Shown here one piece after another: positions 41 through 34,778 of a stretch of DNA of 38,188 nucleotides. A program made the translations under genes and the position numbers. The DNA lies in NCBI GenBank assembly GCA_022823505.1, contig JAJEIA010000056.1, forward strand, positions 1-38,188, read 5' to 3'. How positions within the stretch are numbered: the first letter of the stretch is position 1; each line of letters opens with the position of its first letter. The DNA comes from Dehalococcoidia bacterium. Its GTDB lineage: Bacteria > Chloroflexota > Dehalococcoidia > Lucifugimonadales > UBA3495. Below the pieces are notes generated by a model, which did no database searches, was not told the origin of the DNA, and was given only the letters and a program-made list of their open reading frames with translations.

Positions 41-2323
41 CTACTCGGCGGCGAGACCTTCGGCCCGGCGGAGTTCATCCACGTCGAACTCGATGTCCGC
101 GTTCTGTCCGTTCAGCGCGGCAAGCACGCGTTCGCCGGACAGGGGCAACTCCTTGACGCGCACGCCCACCGCATCGTACACCGCGTTGGCGATGGCGGCG
201 GGCGGGCCAAAGCCGGGCGGTTCGGCCACGGCCCGGGCGCCGAATGGCCCATCGGGGGCCGGCACGTTGATCAGGACGTTCTCCAGTTCGGGCAGGTCGA
301 TGGCCAACGGCATCAGGTACGAAGCGAACGAGGGGTTCCGGACGGCGCCCGTTTCCGGGTCGAATTGCTGGTCTTCCGTCAGGGCACGGCCAATCCCCTG
401 GACCACTCCGCCGTCCAACTGACCCTCAACTGCCATGGGATTGATCGGCGTTCCCACGTCCTGGGCCTGGATGTAACGGAGCACCCGGATCTGGCCGGTT
501 TGCCGGTCGACCTTGACCTCGGCGGCCTGCGCGGCGAATACCGGGGTGTAGGGCATGCTGGAAAGAGACGCGGTGCCGATGATGGGACCGCCCCGTGAGG
601 TCACGCTGGCTGCGGCCAACTGCGCGAAGGTCAGGCCCTGCGGCTCGTTGTCCATCACGTAGACGCGACCATCCTCACAGCCCAAAGCGTCCTCGGGAAG
701 TCCCAGGCGCTCGGCAGCCAGAGCGATGAGCTTTTGGACCGTGTCCTCGGCGGCGCGCTGCACTGCGGTTCCCTGGCTGTACACGATGCGGCTGCCGCCG
801 GACTGACCGGTGTATGGCGCGAGGTCAGTGTCGCGCTTGGCCACGACCACCTGGTCCATCGGGATGCCCAGGGCCTCGGCGGCAATGGCGGCCAGGGACG
901 TGTCGCTGCCGGATATGTCCACCGAACCGGTGAGCAGGCTTACCGTGCCGTCGTCATTGACGCTGATCGATGCCGTGGACGGGCCGCTGCCACTCCTCCA
1001 CTCACACAGCGCCAGGCCCAGGCCGTGGCCGTCTTCCAACTGGCGCGGCCAGTCGATCTTTTCCTTGATGGCCTCCAGAGTTTCCATGAGCCCGTTGGTT
1101 GGGACCACGGCTCCGCTCACGGACACATCGCCTTCGCGCAGGGCGTTCTTCACGCGCAGGTCGTATGGGTCCATTCCAATTTCATGAGCGATGCGGTCCA
1201 TGTGGGATTCCACCGCAAAGGTCATGTCGGCGACGCCGGAGGCCCGGTACGAACCGACGTAGATCTTGTTGGTGTAAACACCGTAGGAACGCAGCCGGAA
1301 GTTGGGCACCCGGTAGGCCCCGATGCCGTGACCAATCCCCGAGTTCGGGCCGGCGCCCAGGTACGCTCCCACGTCGAAGATCGTGTAGGCTTCACGGGCG
1401 ACGATGGTTCCGTCCCGCGTGACCCCGGACCGGATGTAGTTGGTGACCGGAAGCCTCGGGCCATTCATGGTGAACACTTCCTCGCGGGTGTTCACCAATT
1501 TGACGGGCCGCCCGGTCCTCATAGCCAGCAGCGCGGGAAAAGCCTCGAAGGCGAGCCGCAGCTTGGCGCCGAAGCCGCCGCCGAGTTCCATGGGAACCAC
1601 GCGGATGCGCGACACCGGGATCTCAAGCACGCCAGCCAACGCCGCCCTGATCTGGTAGGGTCCCTGAGTGGAAGCATAGACCACCAGCCGGCCGTTGGCT
1701 TCTACGTCGGCTACGCACGCCATGGGCTCGAGGAATCCCTGGTTGATCCCCTGGGAGCGATACACGTCCTCCACCACGACGTCGGCGTCCCGGAATGCCT
1801 GGTCGACGTCTCCCCGGTCGGCGTCCAGCAGTGTGCTGACGTTGTGCCCAAGGGTGAACCCGTATCCCTCGTACTCTTCCAACTCCGGATGGACGGTGGC
1901 CGCATCTGAACCGATGGCGGACAAGGGGTTGACCACGGCCGGCAGGTCTTCGTATTCGACCTCGATCAACTCGATGGCTTCCTGGGCCGTGGCCTCGTCG
2001 TCCGCCGCCACCGCGGCGATGGGCTCGCCCACGAAGTTGACCACGTCGCGCGGCATGACGTACCGGTCGCGCAGAGCGCCGGAGCCGAACCGAATGTCGG
2101 GAAAATCGGTCCCGGTGATGACACACCTGACTCCCGGAAGGGAGGCCGCCTTGGCCGTGTCCAGCCGCACGATGCGGGCGTGGCTGCGTGTGGCAGGGAG
2201 CAGCTTGCAGGCCAACATACCGGGCAGGTACACGTCGGACGCGTAGGTGGCGCGGCCGGTCACCTTGTCGTGCGCATCGACGCGAGGATGATTGCGCTCC
2301 AAAACTTTGAACTGCGTTGTCAT
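41..2323 (-). CDS. Molybdenum hydroxylase large (Mo-cofactor) subunit, CoxL/xanthine dehydrogenase family
   Basis: The 760-aa protein has the normal length for the molybdopterin-cytosine-dinucleotide subunit of xanthine oxidase family hydroxylases. The N-terminal a/b hammerhead domain covers about residues 15-135. The Mo-cofactor motif GGGFGAK is at 248-254, and the C-terminal GARAVAEPP (696-703 region) carries the base Glu at about 701. The active-site loop reads GSYRASG (357-363). It is neither the CSFR loop of Cu-Mo CO dehydrogenase (form I) nor the usual AYRGAGR of form II, so CO oxidation is unlikely and the substrate (an aldehyde or N-heterocycle) is unknown. It is the last gene of an operon with the FAD and Fe-S subunits just upstream. 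The ATG start at 2323 opens directly into the conserved N-terminus. Confidence 0.93.
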   Translation of the reverse strand: MTTQFKVLERNHPRVDAHDKVTGRATYASDVYLPGMLACKLLPATRSHARIVRLDTAKAASLPGVRCVITGTDFPDIRFGSGALRDRYVMPRDVVNFVGEPIAAVAADDEATAQEAIELIEVEYEDLPAVVNPLSAIGSDAATVHPELEEYEGYGFTLGHNVSTLLDADRGDVDQAFRDADVVVEDVYRSQGINQGFLEPMACVADVEANGRLVVYASTQGPYQIRAALAGVLEIPVSRIRVVPMELGGGFGAKLRLAFEAFPALLAMRTGRPVKLVNTREEVFTMNGPRLPVTNYIRSGVTRDGTIVAREAYTIFDVGAYLGAGPNSGIGHGIGAYRVPNFRLRSYGVYTNKIYVGSYRASGVADMTFAVESHMDRIAHEIGMDPYDLRVKNALREGDVSVSGAVVPTNGLMETLEAIKEKIDWPRQLEDGHGLGLALCEWRSGSGPSTASISVNDDGTVSLLTGSVDISGSDTSLAAIAAEALGIPMDQVVVAKRDTDLAPYTGQSGGSRIVYSQGTAVQRAAEDTVQKLIALAAERLGLPEDALGCEDGRVYVMDNEPQGLTFAQLAAASVTSRGGPIIGTASLSSMPYTPVFAAQAAEVKVDRQTGQIRVLRYIQAQDVGTPINPMAVEGQLDGGVVQGIGRALTEDQQFDPETGAVRNPSFASYLMPLAIDLPELENVLINVPAPDGPFGARAVAEPPGFGPPAAIANAVYDAVGVRVKELPLSGERVLAALNGQNADIEFDVDELRRAEGLAAE

Positions 2324-2401
2324 TGCATGTGCCTCCGGGTTGGAGTCGGACTTGATGGCGAGGTTCCCGATCTGGTTACGGAGATACCGAGCGGTTTCAC
2401 G

Positions 2402-2752
2402 CTATTGAAATTTGGCACTCAACTCCCGACTCACTCTTCGGTTGTGCTCGTAGTATTCTTCTTCCAACCGCGCGTCTTCTTCGGGATCGCTGGAAGCGCG
2501 GCGCATTTCTCGTTGCGTTTCCAGTGCTTCGGTTCGTCCATCAGCAAATATTCGTTCGTGGCGATCATTGCTCATCCGGTGCGTGGCGTAGAAATCCAGG
2601 TACTCATCGACGCCATCACTACCGAATAGCCACTGTATCGACCAGCCAGCCTGCGTGATTCTGCCTCGTTGACGGTTGGCCACGGCTTCCGCTGGCAACT
2701 CGATACCCCAGTTGGCGAAGTACCGGTTGAAATAAGCGACGACGTTGTCCAT
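2402..2752 (-). CDS. Small conserved hypothetical protein inside the molybdenum hydroxylase operon
   Basis: This is a 116-aa soluble protein that I do not recognise. I chose the ATG at 2752 because the longer open frame running upstream only shadows the Fe-S subunit gene; the reading turns protein-like at MDNVVAYFNRYF. Visible features are an aromatic N-terminus, a central stretch with GWSIQWLFG and YLDFYATHRMSNDRHERIFADG-type residues, and a charged, Glu/Arg-rich helical C-terminus (residues 80-116). It has no cysteines, signal peptide or membrane segment. It starts 26 nt after the Fe-S subunit gene and ends 78 nt before the Mo subunit gene, so it is very likely co-transcribed. Its position suggests a role linked to the hydroxylase, such as assembly or substrate handling, but nothing in the sequence proves that. 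Confidence 0.75.
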   Translation of the reverse strand: MDNVVAYFNRYFANWGIELPAEAVANRQRGRITQAGWSIQWLFGSDGVDEYLDFYATHRMSNDRHERIFADGRTEALETQREMRRASSDPEEDARLEEEYYEHNRRVSRELSAKFQ

Positions 2753-2778
2753 TGTCAGAATCCCACGAAGCCCGGAGA

Positions 2779-3255
2779 TCAGGCGGACCCGCGCATTTCT
2801 TCGGCGGCGGCCATGACCGCTTCGACCACTCGCTGGTACCCCGTGCACCGGCACAGATTGCCTCCGATGGCGAAGCGGACATCCTCCACGGTCGGGTCCG
2901 GGTTGTCCTGCAGGAACCCCGTGGCCGACATGATCAGTCCCGGGATGCAGAACCCGCATTGCAGTCCGCCGTGTTCCACGAAAGCTTTCTGGACGGGACT
3001 GAGGCCGTCCACGCCGGCCAACCCCTCGATGGTCGTGATGGCTGAGTCGTGAGCGCTGTGGGCCAGGACCAGGCACGAAGTGACCGGCTTGCCGTCCATC
3101 AGCACCGTGCAAGCTCCGCAGTCCCCTTCGTCGCAACCCTTTTTTGCGCCCGTCAACTGCGCTTCGTCACGCAGGCAGTCCAGCAGTGAATAGAACGGTT
3201 CCACCAGCATCAGCCGACTTTCGCCGTTGATGTTCAGATTGAGCGGCTGTTTCAT
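2779..3255 (-). CDS. Molybdenum hydroxylase small [2Fe-2S] subunit, CoxS family
   Basis: The 158-aa protein has both [2Fe-2S] cluster sites of the family. The plant-type ferredoxin site is C41, C46, C49, C61 in the GCDEGDCGACT context. The second, helical-domain site is C100, C103, C135, C137 in QCGFCIPG and NLCRCTGY. This subunit passes electrons from the Mo centre to the FAD subunit. It lies 21 nt downstream of the FAD subunit gene and 26 nt upstream of the small hypothetical gene. All eight cluster cysteines are intact and the length is normal, so the enzyme is probably functional. Confidence 0.96.
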   Translation of the reverse strand: MKQPLNLNINGESRLMLVEPFYSLLDCLRDEAQLTGAKKGCDEGDCGACTVLMDGKPVTSCLVLAHSAHDSAITTIEGLAGVDGLSPVQKAFVEHGGLQCGFCIPGLIMSATGFLQDNPDPTVEDVRFAIGGNLCRCTGYQRVVEAVMAAAEEMRGSA

Positions 3256-3276
3256 GTCATCAACCTCGCGGGCCGG

Positions 3277-4197
3277 TTACCAGACGGTCTGGACGGCCAG
3301 TCGCCGAATGTCATCGAAATTGGGGACACCACCGACGGCAGTGTCGGCGGCGTGTCGCAGAGTGCGTTCGGCCAGAACCTGGGCGATCTCCCGGCGATAC
3401 TCAGCGCCGCTCCGCACGTCTGCGATTGGTCGCGATGCCTGGGCCGCCAGCCGCGCCGATTCCGCGACGTTGTCGTCCGTCGGCGCCTGTCCAACCAGAC
3501 GCCCCTCGGCTCCAAAGGCTCGCATTGGCGTGGGGGCAACCGCGCCCAACGCGATCCGGACCGACGCGCATAGCCCGTCGGCTCCGATGCTGACCACGGA
3601 CGCCGCGCCCACGGCGGATATGTCCATTGCTCCACGCGGGCTGTGCTTGATGTACAGGCCGCCCGAGTTCGGCGGCGGAGTTGGCAGCCGCAGTTCGGTC
3701 ATAATCTCGCCGGCGGCAACGGCGGTTTGACCCGGGCCCACGAAGACTTCGGTGAGCGGCAGCCAGCGTTCGCCGTTAGAACCCACGATGCGACACTCGG
3801 CATCGTATGCCAGCAGCGCGGGCAGCGTGTCTCCGGCCGGCGAGGCGTTACACACGTTGCCGACTACGGTGGCTAGATTGCGCACCTGCACGCCGGCGAA
3901 GGCCGTGGCGCCAGCCGCCAGCGCGGGGTAACGCGCTCGAACGATGGCGTTCTGCTCAATGTCCTGCACCGTCGCCATCGCGCCAATCGACAGCCCATCG
4001 TCATCGTTGAAATCAACGCCGTTCAGTCCGGGCACGTGTTGCATACACACGACTATCTCGGGTCGCCATACACCGGTGCGCCAGCGGACCAGGAAATCGG
4101 TGCTGCCCGAAACGAGACGCGCCCGTTCCCCGTACTTATCCAACATCCCGAGCGCCTCATCCAGCGAGTGCGGCTCCAGGTAGTCGAAACGAGCCAT
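3277..4197 (-). CDS. Molybdenum hydroxylase medium (FAD-binding) subunit, CoxM family
   Basis: The 306-aa protein belongs to the FAD-binding subunit family of molybdopterin hydroxylases. The two FAD pyrophosphate motifs are recognisable as VSGSTD (29-34) and TVVGNVCNASPAGDT (110-124). The C-terminal part fits the CO dehydrogenase flavoprotein C-terminal domain. I set the start at the ATG at 4197 because GGAGG lies 6 nt upstream in a clean ribosome-binding position; the open frame continues to 4290 but that part is not protein-like. It is the first gene of the operon FAD-FeS-unknown-Mo and sits about 70 nt downstream of a near-consensus promoter at 4273-4301. Confidence 0.94.
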   Translation of the reverse strand: MARFDYLEPHSLDEALGMLDKYGERARLVSGSTDFLVRWRTGVWRPEIVVCMQHVPGLNGVDFNDDDGLSIGAMATVQDIEQNAIVRARYPALAAGATAFAGVQVRNLATVVGNVCNASPAGDTLPALLAYDAECRIVGSNGERWLPLTEVFVGPGQTAVAAGEIMTELRLPTPPPNSGGLYIKHSPRGAMDISAVGAASVVSIGADGLCASVRIALGAVAPTPMRAFGAEGRLVGQAPTDDNVAESARLAAQASRPIADVRSGAEYRREIAQVLAERTLRHAADTAVGGVPNFDDIRRLAVQTVW

Positions 4198-4272
4198 ATC
4201 AGCCCTCCAACGCCGACACCGTTGCGGCGGGGGTCTATCGCGGCACGTCCCGCCCAGCGTCGGTCTGCCGGG

Positions 4273-4301
4273 ATTATATGGCGGGCACAAAACCGGGTCA
4301 A
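4273..4301 (-). promoter_or_regulatory. Sigma70-type promoter of the molybdenum hydroxylase operon
   Basis: On the minus strand TTGACC (4301-4296) is followed after exactly 17 nt by a perfect TATAAT (4278-4273). The expected transcript start near 4266 leaves a leader of about 70 nt before the FAD subunit ATG. This is the best promoter match in the window. Confidence 0.8.
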
Positions 4302-4385: not shown

Positions 4386-6497
4386 TTAATGGTTGCCGTT
4401 GCCGTAGGGCTCGATCAACACCCGGAGGGTACCGTCGCTTTCCTTACGCTGGGTCAGCAGGCGGTGTCCGGCCTGCTCGGCCCAGTAGATGACGTCGTAG
4501 ATGTTGAGCGCGTCGTGGAGGATGGCCTCGACGAAGGAAGCGCGGTCGTACTCCATCTGGCGGCTCAGTGCGGCGATTACGCCGGCGCAGTTCTTGCCGC
4601 GGCCATCGATCACGGTCCACCCGTTCCCTTGGCCATTGCCATTTCCATTGCCGTGCCCGTAGCCATTGCCGCCGGGAACTGCCCCGACGGGAGCGCGCAC
4701 GTCGATCACGCCGCTCTTGCGCAGATCCAGTTGCTCCTTGAAGTAGGCCACCGCTTCCCAGGCCACGGCGCGGTCCCGCTCCCCACTGGAGCACACTGCG
4801 CCCCGAACGCCTACGATGTCGGGATTGATGCGAGCCAACTCGTCCAGGTTCTCCAGTTTGAGGTGGCCGCTCAGCGCGGTGCTCAAGCCTTCCTGTTTCG
4901 CGTGCATGACCATATCGCGCAACACCGGTTCGGGCATGAAGTCGAACAGGTTGCGGCCGTCCTTGGTCAGCGTGTCGATCAGGAACCCGTCGCACTCACC
5001 GTCGATGGCCAGCCTGACCATGAGGTGGGGGTCCAGCCCGCCTTCAAAGAGCAGGTTGTCGGCAAACAGGGAACCGATCAATTTGGTGTCCGCATTGCCG
5101 ATGGCGGCGCGGGATTCGCGCAGGACCTCAACGGCGGTTTCGTAGTCGGCGACCTGGAAGCCCACCTTGACCGAAGTCGCGTCCATCAACGCCGCAGCGT
5201 GAACCGCCATGGCGACGGTGCCGGGTTGGTTGGGCACGACACCGAGGGTGACGCTAACGTGCTTTTCGGGCGAGATGATCTCCCGCACTTCCCGAACGAG
5301 GCTGGGATGGGCCGAGCCCACCAGAGCTTCCTGGAGGTTTTTCAGGTCGATGATGTCGGCGCCGCCCCGGTCGGCTTCCAGCGCCTCGGCCTTGTTCTGG
5401 GCGCTCACCAGCAGCATCATGCCTGATTCGGAAAGGCCGCTCCGGCCATCGCGCGCGCCGTTTCCGTTGAGCCACGGCGCATGCGGGCGGCCGTGGATTA
5501 CCTCACGAGCCGGCTCGGCCGGCGGGCCGCCGCGGGGAAGCAAGGGCTCCAACTCACTCCACAGTTCGGCTTTCTCTTCGTGGGTCAGGTCCTGCAGTGG
5601 GGCGCGAACGCTCCCACCGGCCATGCCCATCATCTCACCCCACGCCTTGCACATGGCCACCGGCAGCGCGCCGCCGGTCTTCTTCATGGTGCCGCCCCAC
5701 CACTTGTCGGACAGCGCCTTTATGTCCTTCAGGTAGTGGTTATAGAAGTCCACGTCCAGGTCGCCGGCCGTGGCGCGGTCGATGAACTGGGTGTAGTAGT
5801 TGTGGCGCGGCGTGTCGAACCGCCAGTCGGAAGTGTTGGCGAACATCACCTGCTGGTGGAAGCCCAACTCTCTGGCCTTGTGGAAGATCCACTCGTCCGG
5901 AGTGCTGATGATCGCGTCCCGACCGACCAGCAGGTGGGTTTCAATGGAAATCTGCTGATTGAAGCTGGCCTCTTTCACACCGACCACGTTGGGAATGGAG
6001 CACAAACGCTTCAAGCCCTGGGTGCTGATGGTAATACCGAACTGGGGCGAGTTGTAGAACATGATCGCCAGTTCGGTGTTGTCCGCGACCTGCCGCACGA
6101 AGTCGACCACCTGATCCTCGGTCTTGGTGACCATGTAGGAGGGGGCAATGATCGCCAGGTCGAACCCCCGGCGTTCGGCGTGCTGGGCCAACTCGATGCT
6201 CTCCCGCAGCGACGTGTCGGTGACGTGGGCCCCGATCAACCAATGCCCGGCGGCTTCGTCGGCGACGGTGTCCATCACCAACCGCCGTTCACCCTCGGTC
6301 AGGCTCCAGAATTCGCCCATATTCCACGTACAGCCGCCGCCGCGCACGCCCAGGCTCTGAACGTGTCGAATGTTCCGGCGGAGACCTTCGGTATCCACCT
6401 GGTTGTCCGGCGTGAAGGGCGTGATCAGGGTCGTCCATTGCCCTTTCAAGGTTTGCCAGGCCCATTCCTGCGCTTCATGCTTGCGGTAACCGGCCAT
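4386..6497 (-). CDS. Three-domain fusion: DHDPS-family aldolase, MfnB-type (5-formylfuran-3-yl)methyl phosphate synthase, TusA-like tail
   Basis: Residues 15-320 form a dihydrodipicolinate synthase/N-acetylneuraminate lyase family TIM barrel with the Schiff-base lysine K175 (VVGVKEAS) and active-site Y148 (FYNSP). The usual GTTGE loop is replaced by CTWNMGE (56-62). After a linker, residues 360-590 match archaeal MfnB over the full length. MfnB condenses two glyceraldehyde-3-phosphates into a furan aldehyde phosphate, the methanofuran precursor. The residues equivalent to M. jannaschii D25, K27, K85, D151 and K155 are all present (D384, K386, K444, D508, K512). A Gly/Asn-rich linker (609-626) leads to residues 627-697, which resemble TusA/SirA with one cysteine (C637), although the CPxP prolines are missing. 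The start ATG has GGAGG 9 nt upstream. Domain calls one and two are firm; the third is tentative. The combined product is unknown. Confidence 0.88.
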   Translation of the reverse strand: MAGYRKHEAQEWAWQTLKGQWTTLITPFTPDNQVDTEGLRRNIRHVQSLGVRGGGCTWNMGEFWSLTEGERRLVMDTVADEAAGHWLIGAHVTDTSLRESIELAQHAERRGFDLAIIAPSYMVTKTEDQVVDFVRQVADNTELAIMFYNSPQFGITISTQGLKRLCSIPNVVGVKEASFNQQISIETHLLVGRDAIISTPDEWIFHKARELGFHQQVMFANTSDWRFDTPRHNYYTQFIDRATAGDLDVDFYNHYLKDIKALSDKWWGGTMKKTGGALPVAMCKAWGEMMGMAGGSVRAPLQDLTHEEKAELWSELEPLLPRGGPPAEPAREVIHGRPHAPWLNGNGARDGRSGLSESGMMLLVSAQNKAEALEADRGGADIIDLKNLQEALVGSAHPSLVREVREIISPEKHVSVTLGVVPNQPGTVAMAVHAAALMDATSVKVGFQVADYETAVEVLRESRAAIGNADTKLIGSLFADNLLFEGGLDPHLMVRLAIDGECDGFLIDTLTKDGRNLFDFMPEPVLRDMVMHAKQEGLSTALSGHLKLENLDELARINPDIVGVRGAVCSSGERDRAVAWEAVAYFKEQLDLRKSGVIDVRAPVGAVPGGNGYGHGNGNGNGQGNGWTVIDGRGKNCAGVIAALSRQMEYDRASFVEAILHDALNIYDVIYWAEQAGHRLLTQRKESDGTLRVLIEPYGNGNH

Positions 6498-6518
6498 GAT
6501 AAAAAGCCTCCAACGACA

Positions 6519-10736: not shown

Positions 10737-11534
10737 TCACCAATACGCGTGGAAATGGTGCAGCGGCCCATGACCCTGGCCTATTGGGTAGGACGAGCGA
10801 ATCGCGGCGGTGACGTAATCTTTCGCCTGAGCGACCGCGGCGGGCACGTTCAGCCCGTGTGCAAGGCCGGCCGCAACGGCGGACGCGAAGGTACAGCCGG
10901 TTCCGTGGGTGTTAGTCGAAGGGATGCGCTCCGTGGTGAATTCCGTGAACTCAGCGCCGTCGAACAGGACGTCGGTTGGCGCCCCGTCGCGGTGACCGCC
11001 TTTCACCACGACCGAGCGAGCCCCCATGGCGACGATACGGGTCGCGGCCTCCCGGACGTCGTCATCGGATCGGATGGTGAGCCCCGTCAAATCCTCGGCC
11101 TCAGGGATGTTGGGAGTGACCACCGCCGCCAGCGGTATCAACGAATTGCAGATGGATTGTATGGCCTCCTCCCGGAGCAGGCGGTCGCCACTCTTGGCGA
11201 CCATCACGGGATCGACCACCAGGTTGGCGACGCCGTGCCGCCGGATGGCATCGGACACCGTTTCCACGATCTCGCTGGAAGACAGCATTCCGGTCTTCAC
11301 GGCGTCGGCTCCGATGTCCGTGATCACCGCGTCGATTTGGGCAGAGATGATCCCGGTGGGTATCTCGTGCACCGCGCTGACGCCAACGGTGTTTTGAGCC
11401 GTGATTGCGGTGAGTGTGGACGTGCCGAACACTCCCAGGGCGGAGAAGGTTTTGAGGTCGGCCTGGATTCCGGCTCCGCCGCCGGAGTCGGAGCCGGCGA
11501 TTGTCATCACAGTCGGCGGACGCGCATCAGCCAT
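10737..11534 (-). CDS. thiD: Hydroxymethylpyrimidine/phosphomethylpyrimidine kinase ThiD
   Basis: The 265-aa ribokinase-fold kinase phosphorylates HMP and HMP-phosphate in thiamine biosynthesis. It shows the N-terminal [18 protein letters not shown] substrate/ATP region and the C-terminal anion-hole motif [12 protein letters not shown] prefer the ATG at 11534 (AAGGTGG 8 nt upstream) over the in-frame GTG at 11546, which would lie inside that ribosome-binding site. It follows the GYD gene by 30 nt, and thiE is found elsewhere in this window (27016-27993). No TPP riboswitch is visible upstream. Confidence 0.95.
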
Positions 11535-11564
11535 GCCAGTTACCACCTTGCGCTCAGGAGTCGC

Positions 11565-27015: not shown

Positions 27016-27993
27016 CTAAATCCGCCCGCCGGCGGCGCGGATGGCCTCGGTCAGGGCTGCGGCCGCGGCTTCCGGTTCCGGCGCGCTCCCCACTGCCGCG
27101 GTGACGCAAATGGCATCTGCGCCGGCTTCGACCACCGGAGCCACGTTCTCCGCCGTGATCCCACCGATAGCCACCAGGGGCACGCTCGCGGCGGCACGGG
27201 CCTGCTTCAAGCGTTCCGGTCCCTGCGGTGCGCGAGTGACCTGCTTGGTCGTCGTGGTGTACATCGCGCCGAAGGCAACGTGGTCAGCTCCCATTTCCTG
27301 CGATTCGATTATCAGATCGATCTCGCGATTGGAACGGCCCAGGACCTGTCCCGGCGCCAGAATTTTCCTGGCTGCGGCTACGGGCAGATCGGTCTGGCCA
27401 ACGTGCAGCCCCACGTGGTGTGGGCCCAACGCCGCGGCCAGGTCGGCGTGATCGTTGATGATCAGCAGGGCGTCGTTGGCGGCGCACAGATCCAGCAGCG
27501 CCGCGCCCAGGGGCATCTGTTCACCCTTGTCCCGCAGTTTATCCCGGAGCTGCAGGATGCGGGCGCCACCGTTGATGGCAGCGCGCGCGATTTCAAGAGG
27601 ATCCCGGCCGCCCGTTACTTCCGGATCGATGATTACGTATAGGCCCCGTATGCGGTTCGCCTGATCGCGGCGCAACGCGGCGCCAATTCGCGCAACGGTG
27701 TCATCCAGGGCGCGACGCAACTGTAGCGCTTCGTCGGCGGGAACCCCCTGGGTTGTCTCCAGCACATCGAGCAAACCCCGGGCCGCGCCGGCCATCTCCA
27801 GTGCGGTATCTCGACTCTCGACGGCGATAAGCGCGGTGGATGCTCGGTCGGGGTCGCTGAGGCCGTCGCCCAGCCATCCAATTTCCCCTCGCATGAGACC
27901 CTCGGGAAGAGCGTCCGACGCCACAATGCCGTCCAGACACGCCACGAGCGCCGGCAGCAAGTCAGGTTGGGAACTGCGTTCCTGGTTTGTCAC
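27016..27993 (-). CDS. thiE: Thiamine-phosphate synthase ThiE with N-terminal helical extension
   Basis: Residues 115-325 form the TIM-barrel ThiE, which joins HMP-PP and thiazole phosphate. Visible segments are RGLYVIIDPE, GARILQLRDKLRDKGEQ, LLIINDHADLAAALGPHHVGLHVGQTD, GRSNREIDLI, GADHVAFGAMYTTTTKQ and VPLVAIGGITAENV. All of these are typical. The first 110 residues are an additional helical region (ARGLLDVLETTQG, LRRALDDTVARIGAALRR) that might be a degenerate ThiD2-like domain; I cannot prove that. The GTG start overlaps the stop of the fmdB gene upstream (GTGA), which indicates translational coupling. Confidence 0.93.
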   Translation of the reverse strand: MTNQERSSQPDLLPALVACLDGIVASDALPEGLMRGEIGWLGDGLSDPDRASTALIAVESRDTALEMAGAARGLLDVLETTQGVPADEALQLRRALDDTVARIGAALRRDQANRIRGLYVIIDPEVTGGRDPLEIARAAINGGARILQLRDKLRDKGEQMPLGAALLDLCAANDALLIINDHADLAAALGPHHVGLHVGQTDLPVAAARKILAPGQVLGRSNREIDLIIESQEMGADHVAFGAMYTTTTKQVTRAPQGPERLKQARAAASVPLVAIGGITAENVAPVVEAGADAICVTAAVGSAPEPEAAAAALTEAIRAAGGRI

Positions 27994-33143: not shown

Positions 33144-34778
33144 ATGGTTACCAACCAGATGACGGGCGACGCCTCCGTCGCCCGCGAGTTCAACGACGCG
33201 ACCAAGCTCCAGTACATCAACCTGAGCAACAAGCCGCCCCTGTACAAGATCTACCCCGGGCTGCGCGCAATCCCATTGCCGGACGTGGGAGGAACATCCA
33301 ACCTCGAGATGTCCACGTTACAGGCCATTCGCGGCGGCGATCAGGACGCCGGTAGGGGCAGCGCCGTGACCTCGGAGACCCTGGCCGAGCTGCTTTACCA
33401 CGCCGCAGCGGTGATCCGCCGCCGGACGCTACGGGACGGCGAGGTCCATTACCGGGCTGCCGCCTCCGCCGGGGCGCTGTATCCCACGGAGGTATACGTG
33501 GTTTGCGGCGACCTGGAGGGGCTGCGCGCCGGCGTCTACCATTTCAATCCGTTGGATTTTACCCTGGCGCGTTTGCGAAACGGCGACTTGCGACGCTGGG
33601 TTGCCGCCGCCGCCCAAGACCACGCCGCCTACCCGGCGACGCTGGTATTCACCACGGTGTTCTGGCGCAGCGCCTGGAAATACCGTGAAAGAGGCTACCG
33701 GTACTGCTACTGGGACCTGGGCACGATAGCCGCAAATCTCGCGGCGGCCGGCAACGCCGCCGGTACCCAGGTGGGCCTGAAATTTGGCTTCGTCGACCGA
33801 TCGCTGACCGGTTTCTTCGGGATCGATGGGATCGAAGAGGCGCCTTCTCTGGTGGCCACCCTTGGCAACCCCGACGGCACGCTGAACTCCGGCTCCGGCG
33901 ACGTTCCGGGGATGCTGCCCCAGGAGAGCAACGAACTCGCGGCCGGGGCCCTGGAGTACCCGCTATCTCGCCGGGTCCACCTGGCTTCCTGGCTGCAGAC
34001 CGGCGATGACGTGGCGGCGTGGAACGCCCCAAGCGACGCTGGACGCAGTAGCGACAAAGACGAACTGGACGGCACCGGCGAGGGGTTTCGGCCGCTGCGC
34101 GCGGGCCCCGATGGAAGCTTTGACGGGGACCTGGACCTGGCGTCCCGGCCGGCGCAATCGCTGGGTGAGTGCATTCGCTCCCGCGGCTCGACCCGCCGGT
34201 TTGCCACCGAACCCATCCAATGGGAGGATTTCCGGTCCATTGTTGAAGCCGCCGGCAACCCGATTAACGCCCCACACCTGGCGAACGGGCTTTCCCCCTA
34301 TCTGAGCATCTACCTGATCGTCAACGCGGTCGATGGCCTTGCCCCCGGAGCCTACTACTACAACCGTTTCTACAACGGGCTGCGGTTGCTGAAGGCGGGC
34401 GACTTCCGGGAAACCGCCGGCCACCTGGGCTTTGAGCAAGCGCTCCCGGCGGACGCGGCGGCCGTGGCGTTCATAACTGCCGACCTGCCGTTGATCGAGC
34501 GCGAATTCGGGACGCGGGGCTATCGCATGGCGCAGACGGTGGCGGGCATCATTGGCGGTCGCATCTATCTCGCCACGCACGCGCTGGGATTGGGAGCCAC
34601 GGGGCTCACCTTTTTCGACGATGCCGTCGTCGAGTTTTTCGGTCCTCACGCCACGGGGCAGGAAGCGGTGTTCGTGGTGCCCATGGGCGTCCCGCATCAG
34701 GACAACCGTGTGCGCCCGTTCCGGTCCAGATTGGCGGTGAGCCTGGACGCCCGTGCCAGAGGCGCCGGTCAGGACTGA
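33144..34778 (+). CDS. SagB/ThcOx-type nitroreductase-fold oxidoreductase, two tandem domains
   Basis: The 544-aa protein contains two copies of the FMN-dependent SagB-type nitroreductase fold. The first (about 75-250) has ETLAELLYHAAAVIRRR, HYRAAASAGALYPTEVYVV and YCYWDLGTIAANLAAAGNAAG. The second (about 335-530) has SLGECIRSRGSTRRFATEPIQWEDF, LAPGAYYYNRF and YRMAQTVAGIIGGRIYLATHALGLGATGLTFFDD. The linker (280-335) is acidic and hydrophilic. Single-domain SagB proteins oxidise azoline heterocycles in thiazole/oxazole peptides. No cyclodehydratase or precursor peptide gene is nearby, so another redox role is likely. It probably shares a transcript with folB. Confidence 0.9.
   Translation: MVTNQMTGDASVAREFNDATKLQYINLSNKPPLYKIYPGLRAIPLPDVGGTSNLEMSTLQAIRGGDQDAGRGSAVTSETLAELLYHAAAVIRRRTLRDGEVHYRAAASAGALYPTEVYVVCGDLEGLRAGVYHFNPLDFTLARLRNGDLRRWVAAAAQDHAAYPATLVFTTVFWRSAWKYRERGYRYCYWDLGTIAANLAAAGNAAGTQVGLKFGFVDRSLTGFFGIDGIEEAPSLVATLGNPDGTLNSGSGDVPGMLPQESNELAAGALEYPLSRRVHLASWLQTGDDVAAWNAPSDAGRSSDKDELDGTGEGFRPLRAGPDGSFDGDLDLASRPAQSLGECIRSRGSTRRFATEPIQWEDFRSIVEAAGNPINAPHLANGLSPYLSIYLIVNAVDGLAPGAYYYNRFYNGLRLLKAGDFRETAGHLGFEQALPADAAAVAFITADLPLIEREFGTRGYRMAQTVAGIIGGRIYLATHALGLGATGLTFFDDAVVEFFGPHATGQEAVFVVPMGVPHQDNRVRPFRSRLAVSLDARARGAGQD

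Follow-up and report, generated by a model that had tools for sequence, protein, structure and literature searches.

A conserved gene joining aldolase, MfnB-family and TusA-like domains in SAR202-type bacteria

Architecture of the fused gene

This work concerns a fused, three-domain gene in a 38,188-nucleotide stretch of DNA (the window; contig JAJEIA010000056.1 of assembly GCA_022823505.1) from a Dehalococcoidia bacterium of the order Lucifugimonadales and the family UBA3495. The gene is a single ATG-started open reading frame (ORF) on the minus strand (4386-6497) that encodes 703 aa; GGAGG, a Shine-Dalgarno-like sequence, is read 9 nt ahead of the ATG (6507-6511, minus strand). An initial annotation, made from the sequence alone, had proposed that this frame joins a DHDPS-family aldolase, a full MfnB furan synthase and a TusA-like tail. 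The single ORF, Pfam matches and relatives bear out three domains in one frame: the DHDPS and 4HFCP_synth/MfnB domains match Pfam above the cut-off, and the TusA fold is recognized by profile and structure model, although its Pfam match in the window protein is sub-threshold.

The gene product starts with a DHDPS-family barrel of the N-acetylneuraminate lyase type (residues 18-315; 5553-6446, all domains on the minus strand), which carries the Schiff-base lysine K175 together with Y148 and Y121. A first linker follows (residues about 325-355; 5433-5525), which is modelled with low confidence (predicted local distance difference test (pLDDT) mostly < 50) and at which the two-gene form described below is split. 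The MfnB-family (PF04476) barrel (residues 362-584; 4746-5414) contains D384, K386, K444, D508, K512 and R574. A Gly/Asn-rich linker (residues 604-624; 4626-4688; pLDDT < 50) then leads to the TusA-like tail (residues 627-697; 4407-4619, with the profile match at 4407-4622), with C637, H678 and R692. Domain packing is uncertain in the whole-protein model (predicted template modelling score 0.51). Because the two barrels took up the match list of a fold search with the whole 703-aa model, the tail was folded separately.

Distribution and history of the module

The three-part gene is real and conserved far beyond chance, with relatives at 48-97% identity throughout the order. Within the order, 118/250 genomes contain PF04476, 116 of them as a single copy; within the window's family it is 46/50, the remaining four being 56-88% complete. 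It was found in 18 of 393 genomes of the class sample (four outside the order) and in 2 of 400 genomes of the phylum sample (both inside the order); the order, family, class and phylum samples overlap. In the source genome (3.7 Mb in 164 contigs; 87% complete), PF04476 hits the window gene and no other, and the sole TusA-family match is the tail of the same fusion.

The fusion is not a one-off, and in related genomes the parts are divided between two adjacent genes. A search with aldolase motifs only identified 153 relatives, of which the best 80 were kept as loci. These belong to metagenome-assembled genomes (MAGs) titled SAR202, Dehalococcoidia or Chloroflexi/Chloroflexota, and the label 'SAR202-type' is based on these titles; four of the 80 titles read Planctomycetota or Actinomycetota, and the corresponding rows group among Chloroflexota in the tree. 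The fused form accounts for 51 of these 80 loci, including L107 and L116, which are truncated at contig ends; the other 29 consist of two same-strand neighbours, separated by -4 to 182 bp (28 measured; L131 left out). Two loci outside the order (L154 and L155) are fused too. In a tree of 79 rows, built with a quick method and rooted at the midpoint, all 52 fused rows lie beyond one branch, corresponding to one state change (Shimodaira-Hasegawa-like approximate likelihood ratio test (SH-aLRT) 97; 0/500 shuffles as low). The simplest history would thus have the two-gene form first.

Co-occurrence was assessed in 59 genomes across the order using the tail profile (E ≤ 1e-3), a DHDPS-subfamily profile (E ≤ 1e-60) and PF04476. 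The same 33 genomes carry all three parts, and the other 26 carry none. As one genome (G586) has two copies, this amounts to 34 sets, and in 34/34 the three parts are adjacent on a single contig. The 30 loci from the order-wide PF04476 search (L032-L061) contain the tail in 30/30 and the aldolase in 29/30, with L046 starting at a contig end. Across the sampled genomes, the two barrels, each with the conserved Schiff-base lysine of a class I aldolase, and the single-cysteine tail are either all present or all missing.

The initial annotation knew of no description of such a fusion. We likewise found no account in the open-licence PMC literature, a body of work in which absence is not proof, and term look-ups in the main texts of four SAR202 papers (PMC6946804, PMC10444878, PMC11994032 and PMC11245477) returned no mention of the trio. 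The fusion is a real conserved module of known families that is undescribed within the literature searched.

Sequence and structure of the three domains

The first barrel matches Pfam DHDPS (PF00701) at residues 18-315 (E 2.2e-28, over the cut-off), and this match and its fold place it in the DHDPS/N-acetylneuraminate lyase superfamily. K175 and Y148, the residues initially pointed out, are present in 87/87 distinct rows and Y121 in 85/87; for these and all following recounts, rows were made distinct and those lacking a letter at that position were left out. The window aldolase scores below each listed NCBIfam cut-off for DHDPS-family models. The top model, 5-dehydro-4-deoxyglucarate dehydratase, lies far under its cut-off (94.9 vs 278), as does the equivalog model of DapA (4-hydroxy-tetrahydrodipicolinate synthase; 73.7 vs 206.15 bits). 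In comparison with its superfamily (DapA, NanA, KdgD and YagE), the window aldolase has Phe at the substrate Arg of DHDPS and Gly/Asn-Met at the Thr-Thr pair. Its best fold match, tied with others, is YagE, annotated as a probable 2-keto-3-deoxy-galactonate aldolase.

The second barrel matches Pfam 4HFCP_synth/MfnB (PF04476) at residues 362-584 (E 6.5e-55; 186.8 bits vs a cut-off of 22.4). Upon alignment with MJ1099, residues D384, K386, K444, D508 and K512 correspond to D25, K27, K85, D151 and K155, and R574 to R217. The first five are found in 88/88 distinct rows and R574 in 87/87, so the catalytic set initially reported as complete is indeed complete across the family. The passages on MfnB in a review (PMC6604932) describe two Lys and two Asp as essential and common to deoxyribose-phosphate aldolase, with the Schiff base on Lys27. 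The six residues derived from MJ1099 are kept in Streptomyces MfnB too. The SAR202-type barrel is 38% identical to MJ1099, 34-36% to Streptomyces MfnB and 27-31% to Azospirillum and Phyllobacterium MfnB, whereas Streptomyces MfnB and MJ1099 share 59-60% identity. The barrel is a divergent, separate subfamily of the MfnB family. Unlike MfnB itself (4-HFC-P synthase, MJ1099, PDB 4rc1), the SAR202 form comes with two further domains, either all in one chain or with a partner gene.

The tail of the window protein matches Pfam TusA (PF01206) at residues 629-696 with E 8.7e-4 and 19.5 bits, below the cut-off of 28.6. In the genome search it scores 24.1 bits and a relative (G489) reaches 28.8; a TusA match at E ≤ 1e-3 occurs in 24/52 MfnB-bearing rows. 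An hhalign comparison with genuine TusA from the same order gave a probability of 92% over 70 columns, with Cys on Cys. Both models show a β-α-β-α-β-β topology (pLDDT 87.7 when folded alone), and the tail model superposes end to end on TusA. Taken together, the profile matches across the family, hhalign and the model make a stronger case for the tail than the window sequence does by itself.

A Foldseek search with the tail model gave nothing below E 0.001. The first rank is the methyltransferase TnmH, of which only part of a larger chain is matched (target template modelling (TM) score 0.18), followed by E. coli YhhP/TusA (1dcj; TM 0.77/0.74, E 1.8e-2) and YeeD inside a 406-residue chain (TM 0.77/0.16); IscS-bound TusA (3lvj; TM 0.78/0.79) is found at rank 29. 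Searching PDB sequences with the profile of the tail returned a single, chance-level match. The tail has the TusA fold with the Cys at the start of helix 1. This cysteine, C637, had been singled out initially and is invariant (87/87 rows with a letter there, one of the 88 rows being cut), as are H678 and R692 (86/86); the approach to it, DG.GK.C, is conserved as well. The tail thus resembles the TusA/YeeD sulfur carriers in fold, cysteine position and full-length profile match, but differs in lacking the CPxP prolines, in scoring below the Pfam cut-off in the window protein and in occurring only beside the SAR202 MfnB in the 59 genomes.

Proposed function and alternatives

We tentatively propose, at less than even confidence, that the gene encodes a self-contained SAR202-type enzyme that uses triose phosphate and pyruvate to build a metabolite of furan type, which may carry sulfur, with the product and the reaction order as conjectural parts. 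The MfnB barrel would condense two triose phosphates at K386, yielding an aldehyde phosphate with a furan ring or one closely related to it. In the DHDPS barrel, an enamine of K175 and pyruvate would then add pyruvate to the furan aldehyde, in a site that lacks the DHDPS arginine and has invariant aromatic residues close by. The tail, on its flexible linker, could hand over to the product a group bound to C637, probably sulfur (as persulfide) but perhaps a different one. What results would be a furan-derived metabolite or cofactor precursor that is new and distinct from methanofuran. Such an order, from MfnB aldehyde via pyruvate extension to sulfur addition, is consistent with the observations. 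The more specific version, in which a furan from two triose phosphates, a pyruvate-derived side chain and sulfur make up an undescribed cofactor or metabolite and the tail is a dedicated, permanently attached sulfur carrier, seems quite unlikely.

Several observations speak against the proposed furan-type synthesis. We know of no activity for any member of the fusion family. Three inspected plasmid relatives of the aldolase, about 30% identical, are located in apparent catabolic operons, so the enzyme may instead work in the direction of breakdown. The MfnB barrel misses the NCBI cut-offs for the named enzyme (186.6 vs 341 and 178.9 vs 304 bits). This is weak evidence because 2/2 MfnB-annotated proteins of Azospirillum miss as well, while 3/3 of Streptomyces pass the first. 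As the cut-offs fail to discriminate, residue columns are the better evidence of divergence. A column was called type-specific when the same residue occurs in at least 7/8 classical MfnBs, a small set of 8 sequences of which 4 are from Streptomyces, and a different one in at least 95% of 87 SAR202 rows. Fourteen columns are type-specific by this rule; all 8/8 classical sequences agree at eight of them, and at column F163 MJ1099 itself carries the SAR202 residue. They include D61 to V420 and S188 to H545 (classical residue in 8/8, V420 and H545 in 87/87 rows, or 88/88 in the recount), and A186 to S543. Some of them lie at barrel strand ends in the model, with V420 ending the strand 413-420 and S543 and H545 at the end of the strand 539-544 (the tips of strands 3 and 7); active sites of barrels sit at strand ends. 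Of the full MfnB furan synthase initially claimed, the family and the catalytic residues stand, but 'full' does not fit a separate divergent subfamily with an altered active-site rim. It is rather unlikely that the barrel has ceased to be a furan synthase and uses its DERA-like Lys/Asp core to turn triose phosphate, or some other aldehyde, into a different aldol or cyclised compound. The Azospirillum and Phyllobacterium MfnBs are a point for this loss, as they are only 33-39% identical to MJ1099, yet keep the classical residue at most of the 14 columns. Retention of all six MJ1099-mapped residues, as in the Streptomyces MfnB, argues against such a loss, and its odds were slightly lowered since Azospirillum MfnBs also miss the cut-offs. 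A similar doubt concerns the tail, in which the CPxP prolines are absent at both positions in 29/29 rows (the motif reads CAGV, CAGI, CQGI, CASI or CXGI); CPxP is present in the 12 same-order TusA sequences, which were themselves picked by that motif. The missing prolines, and the confinement of the tail to the vicinity of MfnB, could mean that it is a structural or regulatory (redox-sensing) TusA-fold domain instead of a sulfur carrier. We consider this somewhat unlikely, as the invariant Cys, His and Arg and the kept DG.GK.C would seem to exceed what a scaffold needs.

The two barrels could also work in reverse order, the DHDPS barrel cleaving a 2-keto-3-deoxy sugar acid (or its phosphate) to pyruvate and glyceraldehyde(-3-phosphate) that feeds the MfnB barrel. 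The dehydratase model at the top of the NCBIfam scores, despite its distance from the cut-off, and the tied YagE match point in this direction. Glyceraldehyde-3-phosphate is abundant, however, and a dedicated source of it would need a reason. In addition, no pathway neighbours common across lineages were seen in the 80 loci (flanks of up to 8 kb, with crude script gene calling), where the commonest other gene cluster occurs in 20 and the neighbours are housekeeping or lineage-specific; this counts against both orders, and we judge cleavage first to be unlikely. Membership of a methanofuran or methylofuran pathway is highly improbable and nearly contradicted. FTR (0/98), Fae, the linked formaldehyde enzyme (0/98), and TIGR03123, which we take to be MfnF (0/59), were found in none of the searched genomes of the order, carriers and non-carriers alike, whereas the same searches gave matches in two methanogens; no search was aimed at the remaining pathway steps. 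That these three methanofuran-linked markers were not found is also a difference from MfnB of MJ1099 type, and such a role is unsupported. What speaks for it is MfnB homology only; the methylotroph MfnB homologue Orf22 serves methylofuran (PMC8141765).

Returning to the proposed furan-type synthesis, a conserved fusion in genomes where the key methanofuran partners searched for were not found points to an undescribed small molecule. SAR202-type bacteria are mostly uncultured, and the strains in culture belong to group I (PMC10444878). The catalytic residues of the fusion are conserved, and it is carried by roughly half of the order and by 46/50 genomes of one family, which makes it a directly testable handle on new chemistry. 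It also shows MfnB in a setting where the methanofuran markers searched for were not found, and provides a natural example of a carrier-like domain fused to two Schiff-base barrels. Abstracts of the SAR202 literature describe these bacteria as abundant and widely distributed in the ocean.

Genomic neighbourhood and related gene sets

A three-subunit molybdenum hydroxylase (41-4290, minus strand) starts 95 bp downstream of the fusion and comprises a flavin adenine dinucleotide (FAD) subunit (3277-4290), a 2Fe-2S subunit (2779-3255) and a Mo subunit (41-2323). Its best PDB match is 4-hydroxybenzoyl-CoA reductase. It could oxidise an aldehyde, its link to the fusion being unproven. As furan-aldehyde oxidase of a conserved module it was rejected, as the Mo subunit occurs in only 12/80 loci, all closest relatives (L062-L074).

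The window also encodes a ThiD-type kinase (10737-11546, minus strand) and a ThiE-type protein (27016-27993, minus strand), and the ThiG of the source genome lies on another contig. Because thiamine synthesis likewise draws on pyruvate, triose phosphate and sulfur, replacement of the thiazole synthase by the fusion was considered, and rejected for the source genome, which has ThiG (E 1.1e-103). Strong ThiG matches (E ≤ 1e-99) occur in 23/33 module carriers vs 24/26 non-carriers, ten carriers having weak matches only.

Elsewhere in the window, a 544-aa protein (33144-34778, plus strand) matches a SagB-family dehydrogenase over the NCBIfam domain cut-off (residues 78-241) and a nitroreductase in Pfam (residues 344-515).

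Other bacterial MfnB genes are found in different surroundings. All four inspected Streptomyces plasmid regions (L142:11989-16446, L143:12001-16263, L144:11989-16359 and L145:12010-16271) contain a four-gene set of MfnB, aldehyde dehydrogenase, NAD(P)-dependent alcohol dehydrogenase and S-adenosylmethionine (SAM) methyltransferase, which looks like a furan pathway. As in the SAR202-type bacteria, this is a bacterial MfnB without annotated methanofuran genes. It differs in that its MfnB is 34-36% identical to the window protein and passes the NCBI equivalog cut-off (3/3), and in that no DHDPS or TusA gene is annotated beside it in the four regions. An MfnB-annotated protein of Phyllobacterium (L158:2992-4188), which at 398 aa exceeds a single MfnB domain and adjoins dihydroneopterin aldolase, is possibly another MfnB fusion. 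On the aldolase side, three alphaproteobacterial plasmid sets (L151:3713-7551, L152:5995-8530 and L153:5995-7535) have a DHDPS-family gene near an annotated 3-hydroxyanthranilate 3,4-dioxygenase and probably represent an aromatic catabolic pathway.
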